From Bradyrhizobium guangxiense (GTDB taxonomy: Bacteria > Pseudomonadota > Alphaproteobacteria > Rhizobiales > Xanthobacteraceae), in NCBI RefSeq assembly GCF_004114915.1, contig NZ_CP022219.1:1146501-1210500 (forward strand): a stretch of DNA of 64,000 nucleotides. The letters are read 5' to 3'. A program made the translations under genes and the position numbers. The notes beneath the pieces are model-generated. The model had not been told where the DNA came from. It searched no databases and was given only the letters and a program-made list of their open reading frames with translations. Below, piece after piece: positions 18,072 through 33,958 of the stretch (the stretch's first letter is position 1; every line of letters begins with the position of its first letter).

Positions 18072-18418
18072 GGCTGCCTCTATCGTCCTATCTCTTGCAG
18101 GAAGGATTTGCGGTTGCGTTGCTTTCCGGAACCAAGCGTAGGAACCGTGCCCTCGTTTCAAGTTAATTCGGCGAACGCAGTTTGAGGCAAAGTTCCGATG
18201 GCAGGAATTAGGTTGACGATCCGGAAATCAGGGCCGCCGGTCTGAAGACTTCGTCAACCAGTCACGACGCCCGTCAGAACTGCCGGCGGCGCTGCTGGCG
18301 CTGGCTACCCCCCCTTTACCTTAACAAGTCCCGGCGAGGCCACGCGATGCGCTCGCCGTCTGTGTCGCTGCGAACTTGCGCGGAGAACGGCAAGCGGCCT
18401 GCCGCCGACCGGACCGGC
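18072..18418. other. Spacer with promoter of the beta-helix gene
   Basis: A 347-base gap between two minus-strand genes. It holds the leader of the beta-helix gene and, close to the upstream gene's stop, a short inverted repeat CGGCA-N7-TGCCG (near 18390) that could be a weak terminator. Further inverted repeat: CGGCGAG...CTCGCCG (18332-18358). No ORF or RNA gene recognised. Confidence 0.4.
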
Positions 18419-19414: not shown

Positions 19415-20875
19415 TTAGGATGCGATCTTCCGCTGAGCTGAGGTCAGAATGTCCACGCCCTTCTGGCGGACCTGCTCCGTATCTGCCGTTGCTTCCTGCC
19501 CGGCATATTGGTTGGTCATCACGATCTTCAAGGTGAGCAGCGCGATGTAGATGTCAACACGGAGGCTCGCGTTGCGCACGTACCAGGTGTCGAACGCTTC
19601 CTTTTCCTCCTTGCTGACGAGCTTGCCGCCGTTGACCTGCGCCCAGCCGGTCAGTCCGGGCCGGACCGACAGACGGTCGGCGAGGTTCCCGGGCTGGTCT
19701 TCCGGCAGCAGCGGGCGCGGGCCGATCAACGACATGTCTCCGAGCAGCACGTTCAGCAATTGCGGCAGCTCGTCGAGCCGTGTGGCGCGCAAGAAGCGCC
19801 CGATGGCCGAGGGCTCGCGGCTCGCTTCCAGCCGCTCGCCGTCCGCATCAAAGGGCGCGCGCAATGTCCTGAACTTGTAGATCAGGAACGGGCCCCCCTC
19901 CCAGCGGAGCCGCTCTTGCCAGAACAGAACCGGAGCGCCCACGTCGAGCAGGACCAGAAAACCCGCGATCACGGCGACCGGCGAAAGAATGACCATGAGC
20001 GCGAACGCGCCCAAGACGTCGATCCAGCGCTTCAGCCAGAAATAGGAGGAGAGCGGCCGCTGCGCGTGTTCGCTTGCGGTTGCGAGTTCCGGCTCCCTGG
20101 ATTCGGTGATGCCGACCAGACGAGGCAGATACTGCAGCAAAATCTGCCGCTCCTGACAGACGCGCTCGATCTCCAGGCTGGTCGCTTCGCCGAGCTGACT
20201 TGCCTCGCCAGCCACCACGACCCGGTCGACATGGATGCCGTGAATTGCGAACTCCGTAACGATGGCGTCGAGCTCGTGCGGCATCCCCATGACCTGGACG
20301 TCTGCTACCGCGCGTCCCACCATTTTGGGATTCTGATCGAGCACGGCGATGACGGGATGGCTGGGCGGCGCATAGGCGCGCAGCATCTGGATGAAGTGGA
20401 AGGCAAAGCGCGACGCGCCAATAACGACGATGCGCTCTCGCTTGGTTTGGTGTTCATGTGCGCTGTCCGGCAATATGACGCGAAAGAACAGCCGGCCACC
20501 GATCAACCCTGCACCGAGCAACGCGGCATGGATCAGAGGCATCGAGCGCGGAATGCCGTCCATGCGCGTGAGCGAGAACAGAACGCCGCAGGTCATCAGT
20601 TCCGTGAACAGCACCGCCTCGAGGATGGAGAGGAATTCCTGGACGGAGAAATTGCGTAGCAGCCCGTCCTGGATGCGGAGGGCGAAGAAGCTCATCAGCG
20701 CAAAGGCTGAGGCGAACAAGCAATAATAGACCGCGACCGCCCAGTCGCCGTGGAATGGCGCCGCGCCGTCCCGAACGAACAGGGCAAGAGGGGGTGAGGC
20801 CGTCGCCCAAACCAGGTCCCACGACGAAACGATGATCCTGTTGCGCGATCTTGAGCTGGGGGAAGGAACAATCAT
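19415..20875 (-). CDS. Polyprenyl-phosphate sugar-1-phosphate transferase (WcaJ/ExoY-type)
   Basis: A 486-residue membrane enzyme. The N-terminal half has about four or five spans followed by a Rossmann-like CoA-binding domain (RIVVIGASRFAFHF). The C-terminal catalytic domain starts with WLKRWIDVLGAFALMVILSP and has IYKFRTLRA, TRLDELPQLLNVLLGDMSLIGPRPLLPED and [13 protein letters not shown], all signature stretches of bacterial sugar transferases. It puts the first sugar phosphate onto undecaprenyl phosphate. Its promoter holds two inverted repeats also found upstream of other genes here. Confidence 0.94.
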   Translation of the reverse strand: MIVPSPSSRSRNRIIVSSWDLVWATASPPLALFVRDGAAPFHGDWAVAVYYCLFASAFALMSFFALRIQDGLLRNFSVQEFLSILEAVLFTELMTCGVLFSLTRMDGIPRSMPLIHAALLGAGLIGGRLFFRVILPDSAHEHQTKRERIVVIGASRFAFHFIQMLRAYAPPSHPVIAVLDQNPKMVGRAVADVQVMGMPHELDAIVTEFAIHGIHVDRVVVAGEASQLGEATSLEIERVCQERQILLQYLPRLVGITESREPELATASEHAQRPLSSYFWLKRWIDVLGAFALMVILSPVAVIAGFLVLLDVGAPVLFWQERLRWEGGPFLIYKFRTLRAPFDADGERLEASREPSAIGRFLRATRLDELPQLLNVLLGDMSLIGPRPLLPEDQPGNLADRLSVRPGLTGWAQVNGGKLVSKEEKEAFDTWYVRNASLRVDIYIALLTLKIVMTNQYAGQEATADTEQVRQKGVDILTSAQRKIAS

Positions 20876-21255: not shown

Positions 21256-22107
21256 ATGTGGACTGGTCGCATTTTTTCAGTTTTGGCTTTGGTATTTTTG
21301 AGTAGTCCCGCAGCCGCGGGGTCCTATGGCGACAACTATTGGGGTGGAATCGACACCCAGAACGTCTCCAACAAGGACGTCATCGGCTCGAGCAGCACTT
21401 TCAACGTCTCCTATGTTGACGTTTCGCGGACCAATGGCGGAAACACGCTGAAGATCGTCCTGCACACCGGCTATGCGGGTGCGCCCGGAACCTCTGCGGC
21501 GTTGGGAACGACCTACGGCTCGCTGTTCTTCACAAGTGTTGCGAACTATTCGCCGATCGGCACCGCCGCCGGTCATTACGCAAATGACTACTACCAGCCC
21601 AACGACTGGACCTGGGCCTTCGTGACGTCGGCGACGCCTGGCACGGGCGGGCTGTACCAGATCGGTGCCGTGCAACAGGAGGTCGACTACAAGACCACGC
21701 ACGTCGCGCAGTACTACAAGACCCTGGACGGAAAGATCATCATGTCGAATGCGTATGGTGATCCGGTGACTGCGCCGTACTCTGGCAACAATGGTTATTA
21801 TTTCCGACAAGGCCAGGCAGTGCAATTTACGCCCGACGCCGGGCAAAAGGCGCTGTACGGTGGAAGCTGGTCGGTCGTGAGCGGCTCCACGATCACCTAT
21901 TACATCAACGATCAGCACACCCTCGGCGACACGTTTGCCATGTCTTGGGCAATGACGTGTGCGAATGACGTGTTTCAGCGCGTGGTCAGCGTCCCCGGCC
22001 CGGTTGTGGGCGCCGGTCTACCGGGGCTTCTCGTCGTGATGGCGGGATTCTGTGGCGTATTTCTGCGCCAGCGTCGCTTACAGGCATCGGGGTTAGCCGT
22101 CCATTGA
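21256..22107 (+). CDS. Secreted protein with PEP-CTERM-like sorting tail
   Basis: A 283-residue protein. An N-terminal signal peptide (WTGRIFSVLALVFLSSPAAA) is followed by a Gly/Ser/Thr/Tyr-rich extracellular body, including a LGDTFAMSWAMTCANDV segment found in many PEP-CTERM proteins. The C-terminus has VPGPVVGAGLPGL, then a hydrophobic span and a basic stretch ending RQRRLQ. This is the tripartite architecture of exosortase substrates, with VPGP in place of VPEP. It probably ends up at the cell surface or in the matrix. Function of the body is unknown. Confidence 0.8.
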   Translation: MWTGRIFSVLALVFLSSPAAAGSYGDNYWGGIDTQNVSNKDVIGSSSTFNVSYVDVSRTNGGNTLKIVLHTGYAGAPGTSAALGTTYGSLFFTSVANYSPIGTAAGHYANDYYQPNDWTWAFVTSATPGTGGLYQIGAVQQEVDYKTTHVAQYYKTLDGKIIMSNAYGDPVTAPYSGNNGYYFRQGQAVQFTPDAGQKALYGGSWSVVSGSTITYYINDQHTLGDTFAMSWAMTCANDVFQRVVSVPGPVVGAGLPGLLVVMAGFCGVFLRQRRLQASGLAVH

Positions 22108-22440
22108 TCCTGCGCTGCTGCGGCTCTTCTGTCCACGCCCCGTGAAACGAAACTGCGGATAGTGTCGCGCGGTCGGGGGGATTCTCCCCGGGGGGACCGC
22201 CAGCGGAAAGCCAGCCGGGGGGCGAGCAAGAATCTAAGCTCGCGCAGCGCGACCGCCCATCGGACATAGGCCGCCGATCGCAAGCTCTATTATCCCCTCG
22301 CTCGTTGGCTGCCGAAACCCCGCGGCTATGGAGTTACGCCGCTTCACCTAAGAGAGATCCATGGGGCCCGCGCTGCACGAGGCCATCACCTCGTGGGGAG
22401 AAAGCCTCCGTCGGGCCGACTTTGCTCCTGGCGGAGCGTC
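22108..22440. other. Convergent spacer
   Basis: A 333-base spacer between convergent genes. A G-rich stretch around 22169-22199 can pair CGGTC with GACCG around a GGGG/CCCC core, and may be part of the transcription end for the plus-strand gene. No ORF with supporting features was found. Confidence 0.35.
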
Positions 22441-23070
22441 TCAAGCAAACCGGCGGCTGCGCCGGTTCACGAGCCATCCGAACAGGCACGCGGCAAAAGC
22501 AAAGCTGGCGGCGCCTGCGCCGACCGTTGGGCCTGGAACTGCGGTGACGGCAACCTTCTCGATTCCCCAACCCTCGTCGCGGAGCCCTTGAAATCCGGCA
22601 TGGCCGGAGCCGAGGCTCGTGTAGCCAAAGGTGAGTGTGTTCAGGCCGGCAATCAAGGGAAGGCCTGTGAAACTCAGTGCCTCCTGGCCCCCATTCCAGC
22701 CGATGCCGGTGCCGTTTCCGGTCAGATTGGTGAATGTCGCGCCGAAGGGATTGTAGTAGATATTGGACTGCGAGCCGCTATTGCTACCGCCACCGAGATT
22801 GAAAGTGCCGGAAAAGATCAAAACGTTGTTCAGCTTCAGCGAGAAGTCGTCCTCATAGAAGTTCTGACCATCCAGGCTGGTGTAACCGTCGATGACAAAC
22901 GACAGGCCGGCCGCCACGGGCGACGAGTTGAACGTCAACGAATAAGTCTGATTGGTTGCGATCGGCCCGGTTGCCGCCGGGGCCGAGTAGATCAGGCTCG
23001 CTTCCGCGTTGTGGGCCAGCAGAACGGAAAGCGCCGCGCCGCCGATCAGGGCTTTAACCTTCATTGACAT
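22441..23070 (-). CDS. Secreted protein with PEP-CTERM-like sorting tail
   Basis: A 209-residue protein. The signal peptide is MKVKALIGGAALSVLLAHNAEA (a second ATG lies two codons in). The body is Gly/Asn/Ser-rich, like the choice-of-anchor type proteins (LTFNSSPVAAGLSFVIDGY). The tail is VPGPTVGAGAASFAFAACLFGW followed by NRRSRR. It shares the VPGPxVGAG start with the proteins at 21256 and 32271. A 24-base inverted repeat lies just upstream of its start. Confidence 0.8.
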   Translation of the reverse strand: MSMKVKALIGGAALSVLLAHNAEASLIYSAPAATGPIATNQTYSLTFNSSPVAAGLSFVIDGYTSLDGQNFYEDDFSLKLNNVLIFSGTFNLGGGSNSGSQSNIYYNPFGATFTNLTGNGTGIGWNGGQEALSFTGLPLIAGLNTLTFGYTSLGSGHAGFQGLRDEGWGIEKVAVTAVPGPTVGAGAASFAFAACLFGWLVNRRSRRFA

Positions 23071-23526
23071 TTCACCATTTAATTTCGATTTAAGTTGTTC
23101 TTTAAATCGACAGGTATGTCAATAGTTGATTTCGAGACAGCGATGCTCGGCGGGCGAGAGTCGCGCCGAGGTTGCCGGCGCGCCGAAATGTCGCCTGGTC
23201 TAAGGCATGGCTCCGTCTTCTGAAAACGTTAAGATGGCTCATCGAGGAGCACCTCTGGTGACAGGCTCGTGTAAGGAATAAATGGCAAGATTGGGCGCCC
23301 GTACCGGCTGCTCCCTGCCACTCGGCCGGACGATGCCCCTTTTGTTTTCAGCTCATCATAAATGAGGCACACGCAGTACGAGGATGATGCTGTCGATGGG
23401 AATGCCTCAACGATCATCAACGGCAGGTACTGCGTTCGATCGAATACGAGAAAACCAAACAATTGTAGTGCTGCGCCGGCGAAACGCCCGCCGGCAAAGC
23501 CGAATTCAGAGTCGGGAAGAAATTGA
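23071..23526. promoter_or_regulatory. Divergent promoter region with AT-rich inverted repeat
   Basis: A 456-base divergent gap. CGATTTAA (23086-23093), an 8-base spacer and TTAAATCG (23102-23109) form a perfect inverted repeat 16-39 bases from the secreted protein's ATG, and TTGACA lies about 10 bases further out (minus strand). The rest, up to the amidotransferase gene, shows no plausible gene; a 77-codon minus-strand frame at 23229-23462 has no supporting feature. Confidence 0.55.
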
Positions 23527-25437
23527 ATGTGCGGAATCGCCGGACTAGTCGACAGGTCGGGCTCGGTCGCGCCTGAATTGCTGAGCGCGATGCTGGACCA
23601 GATCTATCATCGCGGCCCTGACGGGGAGGGGGCTTTCCTCTGCCCAGAGCGGGCGTTCGCAATCGGCATGCGCAGGTTGTCGATCATCGATCTTCAGAGC
23701 GGGGACCAACCGATCTGGAACGAGGCCCATGACGTTGGTGTCGTGTTCAATGGCGAGATCTACAATTACAAGGAACTGACCCGCAGCTTAGAAGGGCGGG
23801 GCCACATCTTTCGAACCCGGTCGGATACCGAGGTGCTCGTCCACCTCTATGAGGAGTATGGGCAGGACATGGTGCAGCATCTGCGCGGCATGTTCGCATT
23901 CTGCATCTTCGACCTGCGAAACGGGACCCTCCTTCTTGCGCGAGATCATTTTGGACAAAAACCGCTCTACTACACGAAACAGCACGGGAAACTCGCGTTC
24001 GCCAGCGAAATAAGCGCGTTGCGTGCGGTGCCCTGGGTTGATCTTGCAATCGATCGCGAGGCCTTCCTGGACTATACATGCTGGTTGTCGTTGCCTCCGC
24101 CAAGGACTCATTACCGCAACATCCTGAAACTGCCCGCCGGTTGCTGCGCGCAGTTCTCGCTGGACAGCTGTGAGCTGAAGATCTCGCGCTACTGGCAATT
24201 CGGCCAAGGATCAGTGGCTGACCTGGTGGACGAGCGCGCCGCCATCGCGCAGCTGGATACGGTGCTTGGCGAAAGCATTTCGATGCATTTGCGCGCAGAC
24301 GTCCCCGTTGGCGTGCTGCTGAGCAGTGGCTTGGACAGCTTCGCCATCCTCAACTACGCGCAGGAGATCGTCGGCGGAAGCATCAGCACCTTTTCGGTGG
24401 GATTTGACAGCAGCGATAGCGAGCTCAACGGCGCAGAGCTGGTTGCCCGACAGTCGAAGTCGCGGCACCACGCGTTGAAGCTGAACGAGCGTCATTTTGT
24501 CGAGAACCTGGATAGGGTGCTGCGCCATCTCGGCGAGCCGATCGGGGACCCGGCGTGCTTTGCTGTCCTGCTTCTTTGCGAGCTTGCCCGCAACCACGTC
24601 AAGGTCCTGTTGTCTGGCGAGGGAAGTGACGAACTCTTTGCAGGGTATGAAGGGCGATATCTTGGGGCGATGTCGACCCTGGATCGTTCCGAGTCGCTGC
24701 GGATGCTCGCGCGCGTCCTGCCCAGCGCCAGTTCACCCTGGGAGACCTCGCGCTGGCAGAGGCTGCTGGCGCGAGTGCATTCGTCCAGCGGCCAGGAATT
24801 CGTCAATCTGCGCTCAGAGGGTTTCCCTGGTGACGCCCGACAGCCGCGCGGGCACAGCAGAGTTCAGCGCAGCTTGCTGTTCAATCGCTCGGTGGCAATA
24901 TCCGAGCAGATGTTCCGCCATTACCCGGACCGTCTCAGCAGCCTTCTCGCATTCGACATGGAATGGCAGCTGCCGGAATCGTTGCTGCAAAAGGCCGACA
25001 AGATGAGCATGGGCGCGAGCATCGAGCTGCGTGCTCCTTTCCTCGATGTCGAAGTTGCGCGACTCGCGGCGCGGGTTCCTTCCGAATTGAAGTTGCCGCG
25101 TTCCGGACCCGGCAAGAGAATACTGAGACGTTTGCTGAAGCAGAGATTTCCCGACAGGCATGTTCCGCTCGTGAAGAAGGGCTTTCCCATCCCGCTGCAG
25201 GAATGGATGACTGGGCCTCTTCGCGAACAGGTGGAGGACGAGCTCTTTTCCTCTCGTTCGACAGTATTGAACCACCTCGATCCAAAGCTGCTCCGGAAAG
25301 CCTGGAACGACTTCCTGAATGGGTGGGAAGGCGCAAGGGTATTCTATTCGTTATGGCTCTACGAAAGGTGGACCAAAGAGCAGCAACGGAAAGTCTCGGT
25401 CGGTGCTCCAAAGAGCCTGGTCGCGACGGTGAGGTGA
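23527..25437 (+). CDS. asnB: Asparagine-synthase-type glutamine amidotransferase
   Basis: A 636-residue AsnB-type enzyme. MCGIAGLVD gives the N-terminal nucleophile Cys2; RRLSIIDLQSGDQP and NGEIYNY are the glutaminase signatures; VGVLLSSGLDS (about residues 260-270) is the ATP-pyrophosphatase loop; LSGEGSDELFAGY is the synthase core. Start ATG has GGAAG upstream. Family members make asparagine or, in polysaccharide loci, amidate sugars or linked amino acids. Such enzymes are regularly present in exosortase-associated EPS loci, so a role in polymer modification is likely. Housekeeping asparagine synthesis cannot be excluded. Confidence 0.92.
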   Translation: MCGIAGLVDRSGSVAPELLSAMLDQIYHRGPDGEGAFLCPERAFAIGMRRLSIIDLQSGDQPIWNEAHDVGVVFNGEIYNYKELTRSLEGRGHIFRTRSDTEVLVHLYEEYGQDMVQHLRGMFAFCIFDLRNGTLLLARDHFGQKPLYYTKQHGKLAFASEISALRAVPWVDLAIDREAFLDYTCWLSLPPPRTHYRNILKLPAGCCAQFSLDSCELKISRYWQFGQGSVADLVDERAAIAQLDTVLGESISMHLRADVPVGVLLSSGLDSFAILNYAQEIVGGSISTFSVGFDSSDSELNGAELVARQSKSRHHALKLNERHFVENLDRVLRHLGEPIGDPACFAVLLLCELARNHVKVLLSGEGSDELFAGYEGRYLGAMSTLDRSESLRMLARVLPSASSPWETSRWQRLLARVHSSSGQEFVNLRSEGFPGDARQPRGHSRVQRSLLFNRSVAISEQMFRHYPDRLSSLLAFDMEWQLPESLLQKADKMSMGASIELRAPFLDVEVARLAARVPSELKLPRSGPGKRILRRLLKQRFPDRHVPLVKKGFPIPLQEWMTGPLREQVEDELFSSRSTVLNHLDPKLLRKAWNDFLNGWEGARVFYSLWLYERWTKEQQRKVSVGAPKSLVATVR

Positions 25438-25595
25438 TTCAGGTGATCGCCGGAATGGCCGCGCGTAGAGCGGCGCATTCCCTCTCCGAGCATCGCAGTA
25501 AATCCCCCCGGACAAAAACGTATGCGGCAGTGATCGCAGGATCGGGGCGCTGATCGGCGTTGCTCGACCAAGAACCGCGCTGCTACACCCCAGGT

Positions 25596-25629
25596 TCAAA
25601 GCTGTGGCACTGAGCGGCCACAGCTTTGA
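25596..25629. terminator. Hairpin terminator between convergent genes
   Basis: A perfect 13-base stem (TCAAAGCTGTGGC at 25596-25608 with its complement at 25617-25629) around an 8-base loop, followed on the plus strand by TTGTTG. It is 12 bases beyond the stop of the minus-strand export gene and 158 bases after the plus-strand amidotransferase, so it could end both transcripts. Confidence 0.65.
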
Positions 25630-25641
25630 TTGTTGCTCTCG

Positions 25642-26868
25642 TCACGGTGTCGACGTCGAAGGCGTAGAAATGATCGTGCTCGAAGCTGAGCCGTTGATCA
25701 GGTTCCTCAGGGCATAGCCCTGCGTGACCGTCGACATCGGATCCTGCACAGCCGAGTTGAGGGTGTGGAGGAAGGCCACGAACTTTCCGACCTCGACCGA
25801 GGCCGAATTCGTGACGTAAAGCACGTCCTTGTTACGCATCTCGAACTTCGTCGCCAGGAAGAAGCTGGAGGGATCCCGGAAGTTGATATTGTAGATGACC
25901 GGCACGAGTGGCCCGGGATATTGCGCGCAATCTATGCCCATTGCGCTGGCAACTTCGCACGGCTCGCCGCGATAGAGGAACACTGAGGCCGGATTGGCCT
26001 GACCGTCCAACAGACCACCAGATTTTGACACGGCTTCTGCCAGGGACAGGCGCCACGCACCAAACGGAACCTGTTGCTGCCGACCCAGAGCGCCGAACGC
26101 CAGGAAGGTCTGAGGCTCGCGATACAGGAACAGCGTATCGTTGGCATGGACATAGACGTTATTGGCCGGTTCGTAGATCAGAGCACCGAGCGGTGCAGTC
26201 GCACGGCTGCCACTGCGCTCGAGCATGATCCACATCTCGGACGCGGGACCCTGCGTGCCCCCGGAGCGAGCGATATAGTCCAGCACGCGCTCCGGTGTGG
26301 CAGTGATCGGCACGCGGCCCGGACGTCCAACCTCGCCCACCATCGTAACCAGTGAGGTTTGCTGGTCGACCGTCGAGACGACAACCTGCGGGTCGATTGC
26401 GCGATTCTTGAGCGCCTCGACGATAGCCTGCTGCACCTCTTCCTTGGTTCTTCCCAATGCCCTGATGTTGCCCGCGTACGGAATGGAAATGTTTCCGCGT
26501 GTATCGACCGATTGGGTGGGGATCGTGATGAAATTGCCCGGACGCACACCTGCTTCTGCGGGAATGAAGAGACCGCCGGTGCTCGCTTCGAAGATGGTGA
26601 CGGACACAGTGTCGCCAATACCGAAGCGAAGATCCTTGGGACGCTTCTGCGTGGCGAACTTGGTCAGCCGAGGGGCGGACGAGGCCAACACGGAGACGAC
26701 CTGCGGTGTGACTTTGACGAAGGCATGGGGAAGGCTGTCGGGATCAACGTAAGACGCATCCCTCACCGCTATCTCGGACGGACCGGATGCCGGCAAAAGC
26801 GCGCATCCGCCCAGAGCCGGAACGAGCAACAATGTTGCCGCAATTGCCGCAGGTCTCAACTCTCTCAT
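25642..26868 (-). CDS. Polysaccharide export outer-membrane lipoprotein (OPX, Wza/ExoF-like)
   Basis: A 408-residue protein from ATG 26868, which has GGGG upstream; the frame is open to a TTG at 26889. LLLVPALGGC is a lipoprotein signal with the lipid-accepting Cys. RFGIGDTVSVTIFEASTGGLFIP is the polysaccharide-export (PES) domain, GNISIPYAGNIRALG its second strand, and LVTMVGEVGRPGRVPI the first SLBB domain; a second SLBB-like part begins near LSLAEAVSKSGGL. It should form the outer-membrane channel. It is divergent from a phosphodiester glycosidase gene, and a second OPX protein is at 39117. Confidence 0.94.
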   Translation of the reverse strand: MRELRPAAIAATLLLVPALGGCALLPASGPSEIAVRDASYVDPDSLPHAFVKVTPQVVSVLASSAPRLTKFATQKRPKDLRFGIGDTVSVTIFEASTGGLFIPAEAGVRPGNFITIPTQSVDTRGNISIPYAGNIRALGRTKEEVQQAIVEALKNRAIDPQVVVSTVDQQTSLVTMVGEVGRPGRVPITATPERVLDYIARSGGTQGPASEMWIMLERSGSRATAPLGALIYEPANNVYVHANDTLFLYREPQTFLAFGALGRQQQVPFGAWRLSLAEAVSKSGGLLDGQANPASVFLYRGEPCEVASAMGIDCAQYPGPLVPVIYNINFRDPSSFFLATKFEMRNKDVLYVTNSASVEVGKFVAFLHTLNSAVQDPMSTVTQGYALRNLINGSASSTIISTPSTSTP

Positions 26869-27014
26869 CCCCAAAAACACACGGTTCAAAATTCGTAGGA
26901 ATGAATAGCATGCAAAGCCTGGAATAAACGGTTAACCTAACTTGCTGACAGGCATGTTTTGGTTGCTGTGGCATTTCTGCCACGCCAGGCCTGATCCAGC
27001 CACCACCGCAATCA
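26869..27014. promoter_or_regulatory. Divergent promoter with GTGGCA inverted repeat
   Basis: The 146-base gap between the export gene and the glycosidase holds a perfect 16-base inverted repeat, GTGGCATTTCTGCCAC, at 26968-26983. It lies 32 bases from the glycosidase ATG and about 100 from the export gene ATG. A near copy lies at 20948-20963. Confidence 0.6.
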
Positions 27015-27863
27015 ATGGTTTTTCGAAGACTTCTGACAATCGCCGCGATTTGCCTTGTTGGCGGCTGCCCTGCCTCGCCTCAGATGTTCGTCGCGGACGG
27101 TGAGTGGATTGAGGCATTCACAGGCGTTCGCTACGTGGCGGAGAGAGTCGCGGTCGGGCCGGAAGGGGGAGGTCTCGTTCACTTCGTTCAAATTGACCTT
27201 TCAACGCCTGGGATCGAGTTGTTTGTGACGCCGCTGGATCTCCATGCGGTCCAATCCGGCTGGGAATATCGGCTGGCGTACGTATCAAGCGTCGTCCGAG
27301 AGCAGCACCTTGCCTTCGCGGTCAACGCCAGTCTCTTCACATCGCGGTCGCTTGGTTACCTGCAGCTGGCCGGTGATATGGCGCGAAGTGTCGAGACAGT
27401 GGTCGCAGACCATGTCGTCAACCACCTCTGGGAACACACCTACCTTCTCGCCTTTGACGACCGGCTGGCCCCTTGGTTTACGCTGTCGAAGCCTCCACCG
27501 GCCGTGGACCTTGCGCGTGCGCGGTGGGCGATCGGCGGACAAGGGATCGACCTCCGGGAAGGGCGCGTAAGGACCGGGAGCGCCATGCCGGACGCCCGGA
27601 CTGCCGTCGCGCTTGATCAGGGTGGCCGACGCCTGTTCCTTGCCGTGGCCGAGAATATGTCGCCCCATTTGTTGTTGGCCAAATTGGCTGAACGAGGCGG
27701 TTGGACCGGAATGATGCTGGACGGCGGCCATTCCAGCACCCTTGCGGTGGGTCCGAACGCCAGGGGGCTTCGATCTGGCACTTTGGTCGGAGGTTGGCGT
27801 CCGGTCGCCACCGTTCTGGGAATCCGCGCAAGGCCGGTGCAGCCCAAGCTCCCCGACGACTGA
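27015..27863 (+). CDS. Secreted phosphodiester glycosidase (NAGPA domain)
   Basis: A 282-residue protein. The N-terminus (FRRLLTIAAICLVGGCPASP) is a signal, possibly lipoprotein, with Cys at about residue 18. The body matches the phosphodiester glycosidase/NAGPA family: FAVNASLFT, DARTAVALDQGGRRLFLAVAE, and MMLDGGHSSTLAVG (the family's D-G-G-x-S-[ST] motif). The human enzyme of this family releases GlcNAc from a phosphodiester; bacterial ones are often near cell-surface polymers. It may trim or turn over polysaccharide. Gene order opposite the OPX gene supports that. Confidence 0.85.
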   Translation: MVFRRLLTIAAICLVGGCPASPQMFVADGEWIEAFTGVRYVAERVAVGPEGGGLVHFVQIDLSTPGIELFVTPLDLHAVQSGWEYRLAYVSSVVREQHLAFAVNASLFTSRSLGYLQLAGDMARSVETVVADHVVNHLWEHTYLLAFDDRLAPWFTLSKPPPAVDLARARWAIGGQGIDLREGRVRTGSAMPDARTAVALDQGGRRLFLAVAENMSPHLLLAKLAERGGWTGMMLDGGHSSTLAVGPNARGLRSGTLVGGWRPVATVLGIRARPVQPKLPDD

Positions 27864-28013
27864 CCTCGCTGTCGGGACAGTGTGGCTGCCAAGGCACACT
27901 TGGCGTCCAAAAAATATTGCACGACAGTATAAATGGCAGCTTGTGCTATCCAGGATAGCCGACCGGTCGTACTCGGCGAATCGGCCGTGCATTTGCGACG
28001 TCAGGAGGGTCCC

Positions 28014-28307
28014 GTGAGACGCGTCATTTGTCTGCTGGCAATGCTTGCAATTCCCGCCTTGGCTTCGCCCGTGGGGCCGGTCGCTGCTGCGGATGCTCCA
28101 GTCCCGGCCCGATCGGTCGTTCGGGAATGCGCTGATCCTGACTGCCGCCATCACGAGCGCGTCTATACCAGCCGGGAATATATCCGGGTTCGCTACCCCA
28201 AGTGCAGGATTCGCGATGCCTGCTCGCTTTATGGAGCCTACGGGCCGCATGGCGGGGCGCCGTATTGGGGTGCATATACGGGATGGGGCTATTATCAGGC
28301 TTGGTAG
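28014..28307 (+). CDS. Small secreted cysteine-containing protein
   Basis: A 97-residue protein from GTG 28014, which has AGGAGG eight bases upstream. The signal peptide is RRVICLLAMLAIPALASPVGP. The rest has a C-x4-C pair (ECADPDCRHH), a second C-x4-C (CRIRDAC) and a Gly/Tyr/Trp-rich end (GAYGPHGGAPYWGAYTGWGYY). Similar small periplasmic proteins are common in Rhizobiales. Role unknown; not obviously linked to the polymer pathway. Confidence 0.7.
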   Translation: MRRVICLLAMLAIPALASPVGPVAAADAPVPARSVVRECADPDCRHHERVYTSREYIRVRYPKCRIRDACSLYGAYGPHGGAPYWGAYTGWGYYQAW

Positions 28308-28397
28308 CATCGGTGCGCCGTTGCAGGCGCTCAAGAGAACTCGTCCCGATCGATGCCTAGATGCTGGGCGATGGCCGCCGGCTCCAGTGCCTCGATT

Positions 28398-28772
28398 CTA
28401 AGACTGGAGTCTCGCTAGGCGTTCCTTGAATTGTTCGACCCTGATCGGGTTGTCGCCGTAGAGCCCTTGCGCCTTCTCCTCCACGTATTCCTGGAGCCTC
28501 TTGCGAACCGGCGCCGGAACTTGCTCGTTGCTGAGTATCCGGGCGATCGTGCCGGTCGACAGACCTGAATTCTTGTGCTGTCCGCTGAGGATCGACCAAG
28601 TCGTACTCCGGCTGAGGCCGAGGGCCGCAGCCTGCTGATCGAGGCTTTCAAATCCCGCGATCCGAAGAGCTTCCGTGATTTCGCGAATCTTGGCCCATTG
28701 GCGTTCGCGCCCCGGACTGCACAGGGGGATATCAGTGGCAACAGCTAACGGATAATCGTGCGAGTTCGACAT
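28398..28772 (-). CDS. Helix-turn-helix DNA-binding protein (XRE-like)
   Basis: A 124-residue protein from ATG 28772; the open frame reaches a TTG at 28787 and there is no good ribosome site, which leaves the start uncertain. SLDQQAAALGLSRSTTWSILSGQHKNSGLS is a helix-turn-helix with recognition helix S-R-S-T-T-W. KRLQEYVEEKAQG adds a helical C-terminal segment. It is probably a small transcription factor; target unknown. GCTAACGG copies upstream (and one inside the gene) could be its operators. Confidence 0.78.
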   Translation of the reverse strand: MSNSHDYPLAVATDIPLCSPGRERQWAKIREITEALRIAGFESLDQQAAALGLSRSTTWSILSGQHKNSGLSTGTIARILSNEQVPAPVRKRLQEYVEEKAQGLYGDNPIRVEQFKERLARLQS

Positions 28773-29211
28773 TGCAAAAATATTCAATTAATCGTCGCGG
28801 CCTGCAACTCGGATGAAATGTTTCCGTTAGCAGGTAACGTTACCGGCGAGTGTGGCAATTGAGGCAGAGCTTTTCTTGGTTCCGATACGCTAACGGTTCC
28901 CTTCAGGCGAGACAGTATCAACAACTCCCAAGTGTAGGATGGTGACACGTCGTTTGTGTGAACCGGACGCTGCCAGGTTCGAACATATTCTGCGAGCAAG
29001 TCGGTTTATTGCTGGGTTCCTCCGGCTCTACACCGCATCGTGACTTGGCGCTGGGGTGCAAAGCGGGGAGATTACAAGCTTGGATTGGAGCATTGAGAAG
29101 CCTCGTTGAAACCCAATTCGGCCACCTTTGTTCGGTTTATCTAGAGGCAGAGGAAAAATCGCAAGTGTCGCGACAAAACCCAGTATCCTCGGCTGTCGAA
29201 ACTGGAATCTA
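28773..29211. promoter_or_regulatory. Noncoding region upstream of the HTH gene
   Basis: A 439-base gap. It contains CCGTTAGC (28824-28831), GCTAACGG (28889-28896) and a 12-base palindrome GGTAACGTTACC (28833-28844); a third GCTAACGG lies at 28744-28751 within the gene. No ORF with support. Confidence 0.5.
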
Positions 29212-29505
29212 ATGATTGAATTTGCTTTGGGTGCGATTGTTGGCGCGGCGTCGGGTTACGCAGTGCGGGCTTGGTTATCTGCACGCCGTCGTCGAGCTGC
29301 ACGCGCCGCCCGCGTTGCAAAGAGTGCTGGCATCGCGGCGAGCGGGGAGCGGCATTTTGTCCCCTTCAAGTCTGAAGGCGCGCCCAGCGAGACCGGTGAG
29401 AATGCAAGCTCGATGGTCGTCAGGCTCCAGCCAGGCGCCAACGAGGCCGGGCAGGCTCAAGCCAACGAATTCCGCGTTCGTGCCGACTCCGCGGCTCGCA
29501 TGTGA
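29212..29505 (+). CDS. Small membrane-anchored hypothetical protein
   Basis: A 97-residue protein. One N-terminal hydrophobic span (ALGAIVGAASGYAVRAWL) is followed by a strongly basic stretch (SARRRRAARAARVAK) and a polar tail, so it would be anchored in the inner membrane with the tail in the cytoplasm. The frame is open upstream to 29128 but the ATG at 29212 gives the better product. No ribosome site is clear. No family recognised. Confidence 0.45.
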   Translation: MIEFALGAIVGAASGYAVRAWLSARRRRAARAARVAKSAGIAASGERHFVPFKSEGAPSETGENASSMVVRLQPGANEAGQAQANEFRVRADSAARM

Positions 29506-29629
29506 TGGGTCGGGACTTCCCGGTTGACCCATGACTCCCGCAAAGATACTCTGCGTTTGAGGCTGGGAATTCTGGCTGATAATTCCTGTTTAATCGCTGC
29601 GGGGCGCGCGGAAGCCCATCCATTGATCA

Positions 29630-30682
29630 ATGAAGGTTTTAATTGCTCCTGACTGGAGGGCGGGCAATCCGTATCAGGATTTACTAGCCCAAGCCCTGGA
29701 GCGGCAATCGGTTTCGGTCGATTTTCTGCAAAATTACAAACGTGTATTCCCTCTTGCTCGCTCCGTGAGGAAGAGCTCGGCAGATATATTCCATCTCCAT
29801 TGGCCCGAAGCCTACTTTTCCCGTGCCAAAGCCAAGCTGGAGTGGTGCCGGCACGCGCGTTTCCCGGTCGACCTGGAGCTGGCGTGTCAGAACAAGCTTC
29901 TTGCCTATACCGCGCACAACCTGCTGCCCCATAGCCGTCACACCCGACTCTTTCAGCTTTCGGCAAAAGTCAACGCGCGCTACGTCGTGAGACGAGCGGG
30001 CATCATCTTTGCCCATTCTGCGGCGGCAAGATCGAGGCTCGTTGCGGAACTGGGCGCCGAGGAGTCGAAGATTCGCGTCATTCCGCATGGAGATCTATCC
30101 GGGACTTTGGGCGCACCGATCCCCCGGGATGAGGCCATCCGGGCTCTGGGCATTGGCTCGGCTCCTTTCGCGCTCATGTTCGGCGCGGTGGACGAATACA
30201 AGTCCTATGAAGAGATCATCCGGTGGTGGAAGCAGAGCGACATGCCACTTCGCCTCGCGATCGCCGGAAAACCGCGGACCGAGGCGTATGGGCATCATCT
30301 GGTGAACCTGATCGGCGGGGCGCCGAACATCATCCCCGCATTTGAATGGCTGTCCGAGGAGCAGCTGCGCCTTTGGCTCAGCGCCGCCTCGCTCGTCATT
30401 TTCAACTATCGCGAAATCCTCACCTCAGGAGCGGCGTGCTTGGCGCGCTCATACGGCATTCCCATCGTGTTGCCGAAGCGGTTGACGTCCGTGGATCTTG
30501 GCGAACCCACGCCCTACGTGTTGCGGTTCTCAACCCCGGAAACCGATCTGGGCAAACAGCTCGAATTGGCGCTCGCAGTGAAACCCGATTTCGATGCTGC
30601 GGCCGACTGGCGAGAGGCTTGCAGCTGGGATCGCGTGGCGCGGCTCACGGCGGAGGCCTATGCTGACGCTCAGCGTGGCTGA
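29630..30682 (+). CDS. GT4/GT-B-type glycosyltransferase
   Basis: A 350-residue GT-B protein. MKVLIAPDWRAGNPYQDLLA is the first strand; DIFHLHWPEAYF is a common acceptor-domain motif; YTAHNLLPH and IRVIPHGDLSG are typical of the interdomain region. The donor domain is shortened, and the normal E-x7-E is replaced by NYREILTSGAACLARSYGIP. This pattern fits GumH/beta-mannosyltransferase-like relatives. It may add a sugar to the same polymer; no partner gene lies directly adjacent. Confidence 0.8.
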   Translation: MKVLIAPDWRAGNPYQDLLAQALERQSVSVDFLQNYKRVFPLARSVRKSSADIFHLHWPEAYFSRAKAKLEWCRHARFPVDLELACQNKLLAYTAHNLLPHSRHTRLFQLSAKVNARYVVRRAGIIFAHSAAARSRLVAELGAEESKIRVIPHGDLSGTLGAPIPRDEAIRALGIGSAPFALMFGAVDEYKSYEEIIRWWKQSDMPLRLAIAGKPRTEAYGHHLVNLIGGAPNIIPAFEWLSEEQLRLWLSAASLVIFNYREILTSGAACLARSYGIPIVLPKRLTSVDLGEPTPYVLRFSTPETDLGKQLELALAVKPDFDAAADWREACSWDRVARLTAEAYADAQRG

Positions 30683-30782
30683 ATCTTGCCCTGCCAAGGG
30701 AACGTGAGCGGTCGGGCAACTGCCGGGAGCCGATTGGTCATGGCCTGATGCGGACGCATTAATGTTAAGGAGAGCCAACGCC

Positions 30783-30836
30783 ATGCGCGAGTCGTTTAAG
30801 CGATGTACAGTCCGTGAGGTCCATCGCGGCGCGTGA
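30783..30836 (+). CDS. Possible 17-codon leader ORF
   Basis: An ATG at 30783 with AAGGAG about ten bases upstream opens a 17-codon frame (MRESFKRCTVREVHRGA) that ends one base before the ATG of the downstream glycosyltransferase, which itself lacks a good ribosome site. This would fit a leader that recruits ribosomes for the next gene. It could also be coincidence. Confidence 0.3.
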   Translation: MRESFKRCTVREVHRGA

Positions 30837-30837
30837 C

Positions 30838-32061
30838 ATGAGCAAGATATTTTTCATCAATCGATTTTTCTTTCCCGACCACTCCGCTACCAGCCAAATT
30901 CTCAGCGATCTCACATGGCACCTGACGGGCAGGGGGAGAAGCGTCCACGTCATTACCAGTGGACAGGCGTACGACAACCCTGGTGCTCGTCTCCGCTCCG
31001 AAGAGGTCATCCGAGGCGTGCACGTACATCGCGTCTCCTCGACCGGTTTTGGCAGGGCCGGTCTGTTCGGCCGTCTGCTCGATTATCTCTCGTTCTATTG
31101 GTCGGCACTTGCGATGCTCTGGAGGCTGGTCGAAGCCGGGGACGTCGTCGTGGTGAAGACCGATCCGCCGCTCCTTTCCGTACCGGCTGCGCTGGTCGCG
31201 AGGGGGAAGCGTGCGTCTCTCGTCAACTGGTTGCAGGATGTCTATCCGGAAGTCGCGACCGAGCTCGGAGTGCCGTTTCTGCGCGGTCCGATCAGCTGGC
31301 TGATCGCGAAGTTGCGCGACCTTTCGTTGCGTTCCGCTGCCGCGAACGTTGTTGTCGGCGAGCGGATGCGGGCGCTGCTCGTGTCGAAGAACGTTCAGCC
31401 TGAAAGGGTCTTCTGCATTCCGAACTGGTGCGACGATTCCGCGATCACGGAGGTGGCGGATTCGGACAATCCTTTGAAATCGGAATGGAAGCTGCAGGAT
31501 AAGTTCGTCGTCGGATATTCCGGCAATCTCGGCCGCGCTCACGATTACGAGACCATGCTCGCGGCTGCCGAGCTGCTGCGTGACCATCCAGAAGTTGTTT
31601 TCCTGATGATCGGAGGGGGGCATCAGGTCAAGGATCTCGCGCGAGAGGTTGAGCTCCGAGGGCTGGCGAGCGCTTTCTGTTTTAAATCCTACCAACCCCG
31701 GGAGCAATTAAAGCAATCATTATGCTTGCCGGACGTCCATTGGTTGTCGCTTGAGCCCCGCCTGGAAGGCTTGATCGTTCCAAGCAAGTTCTACGGGATC
31801 GCCGCGGCTGCGCGGCCGACCATTGCAGTGGGCGATTTGAAGGGAGAGATTGCAGGACTTGTTCAGCGATATGCGTGTGGAATCGCTGTTGCCAAAGGGG
31901 ATGGGCGCGGAATGGCGGACGCTATTCTTTCGCTGCATGAAAACGCAGAACAGCGCCGCCTGATGGGGCAAAATGCACGCAAGATGATCGATGAGCACGC
32001 TGGGCGAGGACGGTCGCTGCAAGCCTGGGAATCGTTGCTGGTCCGGCTATCTCTCCCGTAG
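30838..32061 (+). CDS. GT4 glycosyltransferase, WbuB-like
   Basis: A 407-residue GT-B protein from ATG 30838; GTG 30814 is an alternative. FFINRFFFPDHSATSQILSD and VVVKTDPPLLSVPAALVA are characteristic of the WbuB/WcaI group of aminosugar (L-FucNAc-type) transferases, as are PNWCDD, VGYSGNLGRAHDY and VPSKFYGIAAAARPT. The group acts at the cytoplasmic side on lipid-linked intermediates. Precise donor not determined. It is preceded by a 17-codon frame that may couple its translation. Confidence 0.9.
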   Translation: MSKIFFINRFFFPDHSATSQILSDLTWHLTGRGRSVHVITSGQAYDNPGARLRSEEVIRGVHVHRVSSTGFGRAGLFGRLLDYLSFYWSALAMLWRLVEAGDVVVVKTDPPLLSVPAALVARGKRASLVNWLQDVYPEVATELGVPFLRGPISWLIAKLRDLSLRSAAANVVVGERMRALLVSKNVQPERVFCIPNWCDDSAITEVADSDNPLKSEWKLQDKFVVGYSGNLGRAHDYETMLAAAELLRDHPEVVFLMIGGGHQVKDLAREVELRGLASAFCFKSYQPREQLKQSLCLPDVHWLSLEPRLEGLIVPSKFYGIAAAARPTIAVGDLKGEIAGLVQRYACGIAVAKGDGRGMADAILSLHENAEQRRLMGQNARKMIDEHAGRGRSLQAWESLLVRLSLP

Positions 32062-32123
32062 TGACGCTTTCGTCTGTTCGGGTGGCGCGTCCAGCAGTTA
32101 TTCCTATTCTTCGATTGAAATTC

Positions 32124-32134
32124 GCGATTTAAAT
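32124..32134. promoter_or_regulatory. GCGATTTAAAT element upstream of a sorting-tail gene
   Basis: GCGATTTAAAT lies in the 209-base leader of the secreted protein gene at 32271, 137 bases from its ATG. It shares its core with the palindromes at 20897-20912 and 23086-23109. Confidence 0.45.
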
Positions 32135-32270
32135 AACTTATTGAAAATCCAGCTGTTTTGTTAAATTTTCAATTTGGAGTCGAGTTTGTCCAAAAAATGG
32201 GTGTTGACGCAGCGCCGCATTAAGAGTTTGTTACCCATGGAAGTAGTAATTTTACGGAGGGCTTTCCACT

Positions 32271-32945
32271 ATGTTTAAGAAGTTTCTATGCTCGGTTGCT
32301 GCGCTCGGTGCGCTTGCGCTGGTCGCTCAGAGTGAAGCGAAGGCTGCCACCATTTTCGGTTTTTATAGCCTTGATGGTGGAGCGACGATCAACCCCTTGC
32401 TGGATGCTGATCCGTCTGCAAGTGGCTTCGCTTTCTTCGGCGCGCTCGGTAATTTCAACGTGAACATCCTTGGTGGTGCCGTGCAGCCGGCCGCCGGAAC
32501 CGACCTCTTTACGGCCACCGCTATCGATAGCCATACGGCGCCGAGCACGGATCTGCTGAAGCTTTACTTCGTCGGTACGGGTTTCACGCCGGGTGGATCA
32601 CAGACCTTCACGAGCCAGTTTACGTCCAATGCTCAGGGCTCGGGTCTGACGGTGGGTGAATCCACCTACTTGGGTACGCCGTTTGCCCCCGGCACGCTCC
32701 TGGGCTCGGCACTTTTCCCGCCTCTGCTTGGGACGGCTTCTTCGGTCACCAGCGCGTTCGCGGCGTTGGGTTATTCACTCACTGGCGAATTTGATATCAC
32801 TGCGACTGGCGTTCAAAGTCAGACGGGTACCATTCGCGTCTCGGCAGTCCCGGGGCCGATCGTCGGTGCCGGTCTGCCCGGTCTGGTCGCGGCATGCGGT
32901 GGTCTTCTCGCACTCGCGCGCCGTCGGCGGAAGCAGGCAATCTAA
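32271..32945 (+). CDS. Secreted protein with PEP-CTERM-like sorting tail
   Basis: A 224-residue protein with a strong ribosome site (ACGGAGGG). The signal peptide is KKFLCSVAALGALALVAQSEAKA. The body is low in charge and rich in Thr, Ser, Gly and Ala. The tail is VPGPIVGAGLPGL, a hydrophobic segment and RRRRKQ. It is the clearest example of the VPGP tail here. A good terminator follows its stop. Function of the exported part is unknown. Confidence 0.82.
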   Translation: MFKKFLCSVAALGALALVAQSEAKAATIFGFYSLDGGATINPLLDADPSASGFAFFGALGNFNVNILGGAVQPAAGTDLFTATAIDSHTAPSTDLLKLYFVGTGFTPGGSQTFTSQFTSNAQGSGLTVGESTYLGTPFAPGTLLGSALFPPLLGTASSVTSAFAALGYSLTGEFDITATGVQSQTGTIRVSAVPGPIVGAGLPGLVAACGGLLALARRRRKQAI

Positions 32946-32981
32946 GTACGGACCTTTGTAAAGTCTGGAAATCCCTCAAGG

Positions 32982-33009
32982 GCCGCGGAGCGACAGCTCC
33001 GTGGCTTTT
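32982..33009 (+). terminator. Rho-independent terminator
   Basis: A ten-base stem (GCCGCGGAGC, loop GACA, GCTCCGTGGC; one G-U pair) is followed by TTTT at 33006-33009. It lies 37 bases after the secreted protein's stop codon. Confidence 0.85.
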
Positions 33010-33298
33010 GCTTTGTGGGCGACGCGCTTCGTCGCTTCAGTATACGTGGATACCTCGGACCCTGGCGGCGGCTACGTGCAGCAAGCGCTGTCAGCGCTTG
33101 TCGGCCAATTGCAAGGGCGCCAGTAGCGTCGTGCCCGTTTAAATCAGCACGCGCGCTCTGCCGCCCGACGGCCGCGGTGAATCTCCGCGGGCCGCGCGAC
33201 GTCATCTTGGAAATAGGATGAGTTTGAATCGCTGGCCTGCAACATCAAGCCGGCTGCCGCCCAAACGAGTTTGGGCGGGATAAGGGAGGATCGAAGAT
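33010..33298. other. Convergent spacer
   Basis: The 289-base stretch after the terminator, up to the stop of the convergent minus-strand gene, shows no supported ORF. It includes the inverted repeat described for 33257-33278. Confidence 0.35.
33257..33278 (-). terminator. Candidate terminator hairpin
   Basis: CCGCCCAAAC (33257-33266) and GTTTGGGCGG (33269-33278) form a perfect ten-base stem with a two-base spacer, 20 bases past the stop of the minus-strand gene. A U-tract is weak, so this is a candidate only. Confidence 0.5.
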
Positions 33299-33958
33299 CT
33301 ATGCCGACCGACCCGGAGCTTGGGTCCGTTGCGCCCTCCGCCGGCTGGCAATCCAGCCCATCATCAGGCCACCCAGAACCATCGAAGGGAGAGTCGGGTT
33401 GCCGAGCGGCACGGCAGAGATGTTCTCTGTCGAGATGATGGCTTCGGGAAGATAGTTGTTGGCTGCTAGCCAATTGCCGTTTGGATCTCCAGCTGTGTAC
33501 GCAAACGGTCCTGTTTGCGTCGTATTGAATTGCCAGCTGTTCAATGTTGCGAAATCAGCAATCGCGACCAGGAAATAGCTGCCGGCACCAATCGACCAAT
33601 TGAGATTGTTCAGCAGAACCGGATGTGCGCTGTCTGCCGCCAGGTTTGTCTGGTACAGGAATGTCCCTGTGGGAATGCCAGATCCATTGTCTGCCATGAT
33701 ACCCAGGGTAAACGTCGTAAGAGCCGAGCCCGGCTGGGGGCCGATAAAGGCCTCGATGCCGTTGACCTGAGTCGAGGTCCCCGCGAAAAAACCTAGCCCG
33801 ATTGACTGCGTGGAAGGGCTAGACCCCACATTTTGAACCCCCCATCCTGAGCTGGCTCCATAGGTATCTCCTCCGATCGTGTCCTTAAGGATCGTTGCGT
33901 GGCTGGAGCTAGTGCCGACCAGAAAAATCGCTGTTGCCGCTGCCAGGACCGTCTTCAT
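33299..33958 (-). CDS. Secreted protein with PEP-CTERM-like (VPLG) sorting tail
   Basis: A 219-residue protein. The signal peptide is KTVLAAATAIFLVGTSSSHA. The body resembles choice-of-anchor extracellular domains (TTFTLGIMADNGSGIPTGT, YFLVAIADFATLNSW). The tail begins VPLGNPTLPSMVLGGLMMGW and ends in RRRAQR. It differs from the other three in having VPLG in place of VPGP but keeps the order of motif, hydrophobic span and basic end. It faces the gene at 32271 and they may be paralogous in role. Confidence 0.78.
   Translation of the reverse strand: MKTVLAAATAIFLVGTSSSHATILKDTIGGDTYGASSGWGVQNVGSSPSTQSIGLGFFAGTSTQVNGIEAFIGPQPGSALTTFTLGIMADNGSGIPTGTFLYQTNLAADSAHPVLLNNLNWSIGAGSYFLVAIADFATLNSWQFNTTQTGPFAYTAGDPNGNWLAANNYLPEAIISTENISAVPLGNPTLPSMVLGGLMMGWIASRRRAQRTQAPGRSA

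Follow-up and report, generated by a model that had tools for sequence, protein, structure and literature searches.

In a 64,000-nucleotide stretch of Bradyrhizobium guangxiense DNA (NCBI RefSeq assembly GCF_004114915.1, contig NZ_CP022219.1, positions 1,146,501 to 1,210,500 of the forward strand; hereafter the window), several secreted proteins end in a tail of the form VPGPxVGAGLPG, followed by a hydrophobic span and a basic end. Our analysis indicates that this tail is very probably the tag recognised by an as yet unnamed exosortase subfamily, a candidate gene for which lies in the same exopolysaccharide (EPS) locus. What was observed is a family of tails, an enzyme gene with conserved residues, the adjacency and the co-occurrence of the two, and a partner gene that is fused to the enzyme gene in some genomes. 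The tail is called PGP-CTERM here, a label coined in this analysis. Exosortases that work with a tag are already known, so that it is the pairing of this subfamily with this tag that is new, not the kind of system.

The tail family in the window and in the source genome

Four open reading frames (ORFs) of the window were found by a crude scan to combine an N-terminal hydrophobic, signal-like stretch with a tail made of a motif, a hydrophobic span, and a basic end. The first (21256..22107, + strand; 283 amino acids, aa) has the tail VPGPVVGAGLPGL and ends in RQRR. The second (22441..23070, − strand; 209 aa) has VPGPTVGAG without LPGL and ends in RRSRR. The third (32271..32945, + strand; 224 aa) has VPGPIVGAGLPGL and ends in RRRRK, while the fourth, a doubtful member (33299..33958, − strand; 219 aa), has VPLGNPTLPSM and ends in RRR. 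Applied to the window and 20 kb to its left, the scan, which asked for a three-part tail and a signal-like start, yielded exactly these four. With different settings, an earlier scan had picked up the three VPGP genes along with two spurious ORFs and missed the gene at 33299.

A test profile was then made from 18 training tails, the window's own being left out. With this independent profile, the genes at 32271 (45.5 bits), 21256 (34.2 bits), and 22441 (15.0 bits, the weakest of the three VPGP tails) were the top three of the 351 ORFs in the window. The next ORF scored 5.5 bits, and 20 shuffled sets gave at most 8.6 bits. These three tails are one family, far beyond chance. The gene at 33299 scored at the noise level (1.3 bits, E 6.6, rank 17 of 351), so only the general three-part tail shape is supported for it, and its certain membership in the family was rejected. 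The earlier note on this DNA had described all four secreted proteins as one tail family, a description that holds for the three VPGP genes and is doubtful for 33299.

No meaningful Pfam or NCBIfam match was found for the bodies and tails of the four proteins, and none of the sorting-tail models of these databases, including TIGR02595 (PEP-CTERM), matched their tails. Twelve tails of relatives likewise did not reach the cut-off of any CTERM model, including GlyGly, MYXO, and JDVT; one of the tails, from locus L184, was slightly above the cut-off of the generic LPXTG model (16.8 vs 15.9). The proposal of the earlier note that the tail is a sorting-signal variant is supported; it falls outside the NCBIfam CTERM models. 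In the literature searched, we found no relevant paper on the tail motif or on the name PGP-CTERM, although subscription papers on exosortase subfamilies may contain a description.

In the 8.2-Mb genome, the tail profiles detected eight copies clearly (all at E < 1e-9) and a ninth, at 2749977-2750048, weakly (E 8.9e-4); the open frames measure 171–283 aa and have signal-like starts. When the tails were stripped from ten proteins (the nine genomic copies and 33299), the bodies showed no convincing homology, the best pair reaching E 0.002 over 52 residues. Clear similarity is confined to the tail, which is the pattern of sorting signals. The motif P-x-P-x-x-G-x-G-L is retained across unrelated bodies and genera. 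A common sigma-54 site or other upstream motif of the tail genes was also looked for and rejected: there was no strict site, and shared words were no commoner than in shuffles, with one tail gene offering only 26 upstream bases.

The candidate exosortase and its partner

An exosortase/archaeosortase-family gene was identified at C1:1139848-1140834 (L004:13348-14334, + strand), ending 5.7 kb to the left of the window. The earlier note had seen no exosortase in view, which is true of the window but misleading, and had placed the sorting enzyme elsewhere in the genome; the candidate in fact sits in the same EPS locus. It is the only gene of the genome over the cut-off of TIGR04178 (24.1 bits against 23), a second, weak candidate being present at 3024707 (E 0.62). 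Among 14 enzymes scanned with this model, five reached the cut-off and nine were below it (15.5–22.8 bits), and all 14 fell far below the cut-offs of the named Xrt, archaeosortase, and cyanoexosortase models. PF09721, which represents the EpsH/XrtA type, had no match in the whole genome and none in the enzyme protein, and TIGR02602 was absent from the enzyme's NCBIfam matches. The genome search called for by the earlier note therefore gave no homologue of the EpsH/XrtA type and one of the broader TIGR04178 type.

The enzymes were aligned with near-duplicates and doubtful frames excluded, leaving 33 of the 46 extracted sequences (alignment A6). A cysteine, Asn-x-x-Arg, and a histidine are invariant in all 33, and in 11 of 11 sequences of an alignment that includes the two most distant enzymes; His-x-x-x-Gly is kept in 28 of 33. 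The motifs of EpsH, as given by Haft in 2006, are Cys-x-Gly, Asn-x-x-Arg, and His-x-x-x-Gly (PMC1569441). At the position of Cys-x-Gly, all 33 aligned enzymes have Cys-Ser-Ser. The proposed catalytic residues of the candidate are Cys235, Arg281, and His296. A crude hydropathy plot gave seven segments over threshold, against the eight membrane helices of the superfamily, and by the same plot the invariant Cys, Arg, and His are placed at the ends of successive helices. The closest named relative is an enzyme of 96% identity in a Bradyrhizobium bin. No sequence in the PDB matched the enzyme profile, and the single match of the partner profile (E 0.87) was taken as chance. Since TIGR04178 is reached and the residues are conserved while the named models stay far below their cut-offs, the enzyme is assigned by its sequence to the exosortase/archaeosortase superfamily, in no named subfamily. 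With regard to archaeosortases and other TIGR04178 members (ArtD, ArtE, XrtX, and the cyanoexosortases), it shows weak similarity over the catalytic helices but scores far below their curated cut-offs. The suggestion of the earlier note that the tail has its own enzyme is supported, in that a distinct exosortase subfamily accompanies it.

The gene that follows the enzyme (L004:14312-14818, + strand) begins before the exosortase gene ends and encodes a 168-aa protein. A single profile for this partner recognised the gene next to the enzyme at 46 of 47 loci, duplicates included; a count by hand gave 40 of 41 distinct loci, and 22 of 23 distinct loci outside the training set of the profile. The single miss is L227, where a longer overlapping frame scores 74.5 bits. 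Partners are 150–190 aa long, with one N-terminal hydrophobic stretch and two cysteines that are invariant in 19 aligned sequences. The partner is fused to the enzyme in Microvirga loci L098 and L102, in G057, and on the plasmid of Microvirga ossetica. An assignment of the partner to EpsI by sequence was rejected, as the EpsI models gave no match at E ≤ 1 to the three partners scanned.

These features bear on whether the system is simply PEP-CTERM/XrtA with a drifted spelling. According to PMC1569441, the EpsH/XrtA system likewise has a polytopic membrane enzyme with Cys, Asn-x-x-Arg, and His motifs and a three-part tail, lies in an EPS locus with a PrsT homologue, and has a small gene, EpsI, directly behind EpsH and at times fused to it. 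PGP also differs from PEP by one residue only. However, the tag reads PGPxxGAGLP and TIGR02595 does not match the window tails, PF09721 is absent from the genome, only the generic TIGR04178 is reached, the cysteine motif is Cys-Ser-Ser throughout, and the partner is not EpsI by sequence. A drifted XrtA system is therefore extremely unlikely, and the enzyme was rejected as a near relative of EpsH/XrtA.

Tail, enzyme, and partner in other genomes

The enzyme alignment was scanned against genome contigs of 84,980 species, and 33 loci were found in Bradyrhizobium, Nitrobacter, Microvirga, Azorhizobium, Devosia, and Mesorhizobium, as well as in bins labelled Hyphomicrobiales, Alphaproteobacteria, and Anaerolineales. 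Many of the enzyme loci adjoin a gene for a secreted protein of 60–118 aa (170 in one), often rich in Gly, His, and Asn, that ends in GAPGPxAGAGLP or a close variant. After removal of six duplicates from 47 loci, a tail gene was present within 2.8 kb of the enzyme in 27 of the 41 distinct loci. Tails numbered 28 in the 221 kb near the enzyme and 0 in the 528 kb of far flanks. A crude scan made before the profile had yielded 26 candidates near the enzyme and 13 far from it, of which some were clearly spurious and a few were the enzyme itself. The tail gene lies before, after, or divergent to the enzyme, its order and strand varying from locus to locus.

Co-occurrence was examined in 296 genomes of the family and in a sample of 397 genomes of the order. 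In these group searches, 20–27 tail candidates were scored per genome, and 6 enzyme candidates in the order sample, so that the counts are lower bounds. At least 12 genomes, the source genome included, have the enzyme, at least 14 have the tail, and at least 10 have both (Fisher p 5e-14). The test of co-occurrence proposed by the earlier note thus found both in 10 of 12 enzyme genomes and in 10 of 14 tail genomes. In the order sample, all 6 genomes with tails at E ≤ 1e-6 carry the enzyme at E ≤ 1e-50, a level that it reaches in 8 genomes; these stricter thresholds were picked after seeing the data. When 32 genomes reached through the enzyme loci were searched, the tail was found in 31 at E ≤ 0.01 and in 30 at E < 1e-8. 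Among these 32, 21 genomes had contributed nothing to the tail profile; tails at E < 1e-8 are present in 19 of them. Several of the 21 are close kin of training rows.

The number of targets was found to go with their position. A tail gene is beside the enzyme in 12 of 14 genomes with one match, 9 of 15 with 2–4 matches, and none of the three with 8–10 matches, namely the source genome, G296, and G305; in G296, where the contig starts with the enzyme, the left side is unseen. Four other many-target genomes (G478, G510, G550, and G584) have 4–7 tails in open frames of 75–326 aa, mostly with longer bodies like those of the source genome. In the rhombosortase study (PMC3237569), a single target is described as adjacent to its enzyme and many targets as dispersed, and this arrangement is proposed as a discovery strategy.

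Among public plasmids, the enzyme query matched three records, none of which had given a row to the tail profile, although other Microvirga species had. On the M. ossetica plasmid, two VPGPIAGAGLP genes on opposite strands lie immediately upstream of the fused enzyme. The Rhizobium sp. WL3 plasmid has enzyme and partner in an EPS island and two VPGPEAGAGL secreted proteins 17–23 kb off; in that record the enzyme, partner, and targets are all annotated as hypothetical proteins. The R. gallicum plasmid has enzyme and partner and no tail within 8.5 kb.

Several results weigh against the reading of the tail as an exosortase tag. The tail profile (A5) includes 13 enzyme-adjacent tails that were originally picked by the crude three-part scan. 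Fourteen of the 41 distinct enzyme loci have no nearby tail gene, although most of their searched genomes carry one elsewhere, and no tail was found in the sequence searched for L227 (G630) or the R. gallicum record (L234). The p-values overstate independence because the genomes are related. In the order sample, the thresholds as run gave 20 genomes with the enzyme and 14 with the tail, of which only 6 have both; 14 have the enzyme alone, 8 the tail alone, and 369 neither (p 2e-5). The tail-only matches of this table are weak (E 7.9e-6 to 6e-4). A pattern scan of their loci found no P-x-P motif, and they are probably chance. In the family, G044 and G074 have distant enzymes without the standard tail, their neighbours ending in the diverged APGPDVDIGL or APGPDIDIGL; the closest named models of the G044 enzyme are the cyanoexosortases, far below cut-off. 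Conversely, G004, G119, G147, and G162 have the tail and no enzyme detectable by a sensitive profile, and the enzyme was found in 0 of 8 genomes of the genus of G147 and G162. G147 and G162 are 84% and 69% complete, and G004 is 92% complete in 680 contigs, while G119 is complete. The earlier note had held that tail-bearing genomes lacking an exosortase would refute its view; this is the case in 4 of the 14 tail-positive family genomes and not in the other 10.

Tails without the enzyme would be expected if the tail were an ordinary inner-membrane anchor that is paired with the exosortase merely by hitch-hiking in accessory EPS or envelope islands; a tail of this three-part build would be enough to hold a protein in the membrane. 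A plain anchor could, however, do without a conserved motif, and P-x-P-x-x-G-x-G-L recurs on unrelated bodies in different genera, in tails that adjoin the enzyme in more than one gene order and orientation. We consider this explanation very improbable. The same four genomes could also suggest that the tail is read by another intramembrane protease, be it a rhombosortase, a CAAX-type enzyme, or some other, while the exosortase-like protein acts on something else, and the Gly-rich tails loosely recall GlyGly-CTERM. Against this, the dedicated-target arrangement points to the exosortase and its partner, and no GlyGly, MYXO, or JDVT cut-off was reached by the window's four tails or the 12 tails of relatives, no genome-wide rhomboid or CAAX search having been made. 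A different protease is likewise a very improbable reader of the tail.

Further tails and surface proteins were noted at some loci. A tail gene at L106:9476-9658 has a motif that reads as unknown residues because of N bases, for which reason its weak match may be understated. L074:4493-4726 and L075:10848-11303 encode small secreted proteins ending in APGPDVDIGL or APGPDIDIGL beside exosortases, a further tag variant. At L179:2729-3644, near a distant exosortase relative, four tandem secreted ORFs of 54–106 aa end in P-x-P-V-x-G-x-V-A-G-P-W-G, likely a sister tag. L078, a 6.3-kb contig in an Anaerolineales bin, carries exosortase and partner, the enzyme being 58% identical to that of the source genome; it is placed beside L077 in the tree and is probably a misbinned Bradyrhizobium-like contig. 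In G277, whose enzyme is the same as that of B. frederickii (L080), an ORF of 1922 aa with a LEPRMLLA-type start lies beside the exosortase cassette (L066:10758-16526). It has what we take to be a LamG-like region and is maybe another surface protein of the system.

The EPS locus, the proposed mechanism, and its significance

From left to right, the locus contains a type II secretion cluster, gmd with an epimerase-family gene, a PrsT-like gene, the exosortase, the partner, a Wzc-like kinase, and an ABC exporter. In the type II cluster (L231:8668 to L004:6119), GspD scores 470 bits against a cut-off of 351 and GspG is over its cut-off, while the GspE, F, H, and J models are below theirs; a PilN/GspL-like gene is also present. 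The PrsT-like TPR protein (L004:10539-13304, − strand) scores 350.5 bits (cut-off 312.2). The left part of the window has glycosyltransferases and an acyltransferase. The tail genes sit among further glycosyltransferases, a polyprenyl glycosylphosphotransferase (19415..20875, − strand; PF02397), an asparagine-synthase-like amidotransferase (23527..25437, + strand), and, between the tail genes, a Wza-type polysaccharide export protein (25642..26889, − strand; PF02563 Poly_export). The amidotransferase is over the cut-off of TIGR01536 (433.7 bits) and below that of the XrtA-system model TIGR03108 (426.6 bits against 816.9). Two other genes of the locus encode a protein with a phosphodiester glycosidase (NAGPA) domain (27015-27863, + strand) and an exported-looking protein of 765 aa (15864-18161, − strand) that begins with a Thr/Ser-rich segment and matches nothing in Pfam at E 1e-5.

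Modelled on EpsH, from which the cleavage, its chemistry, the final location, and the matrix role are all inferred, a putative course of events can be drawn. The N-terminal signal would take the proteins across the inner membrane, where the C-terminal helix would hold them with the basic end inside. The PGP motif, at the outer face of the inner membrane, would be recognised there by the exosortase, which would cut or transfer at the motif through attack by Cys235, with Arg281 and His296, and so free the body. The co-encoded partner of 150–190 aa, with its two conserved cysteines, would be part of the machine. Once freed, the proteins would probably be exported along with the polymer or by the type II system encoded nearby; their path through the outer membrane is guessed from the locus, which has both a type II cluster and a Wza-type exporter. 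Judging from their context, the four proteins may be matrix proteins tied to the polymer.

Like rhombosortase with GlyGly-CTERM, the system has one adjacent target or many dispersed ones, and the abstract of PMC13393428 links rhombosortase to type II secretion, a cluster for which is in the present locus. Unlike the enzyme described here, rhombosortase is a serine rhomboid, and its motif is SGGS-like.

As a tentative wider picture, which may well prove wrong, this could be a surface-display system of soil- and plant-associated Hyphomicrobiales, in which a Cys-Ser-Ser exosortase and a cysteine-bearing partner read PGP-CTERM. Some lineages would have one tiny, adjacent target rich in Gly, His, and Asn; elsewhere, as in the source genome, many targets in an EPS locus beside a type II cluster would decorate a polymer coat with protein. 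The finding supplies secreted proteins that lack a family model with a candidate enzyme for their sorting and with a tag that can be searched for, in Bradyrhizobium, Nitrobacter, Microvirga, Mesorhizobium, Devosia, and Rhizobium. The partner, which some Microvirga carry as a fusion with the enzyme, points to a component that also has no family model. The single-target cassettes hold tag, enzyme, and partner within about 2 kb and are thus compact enough for probing exosortase function.

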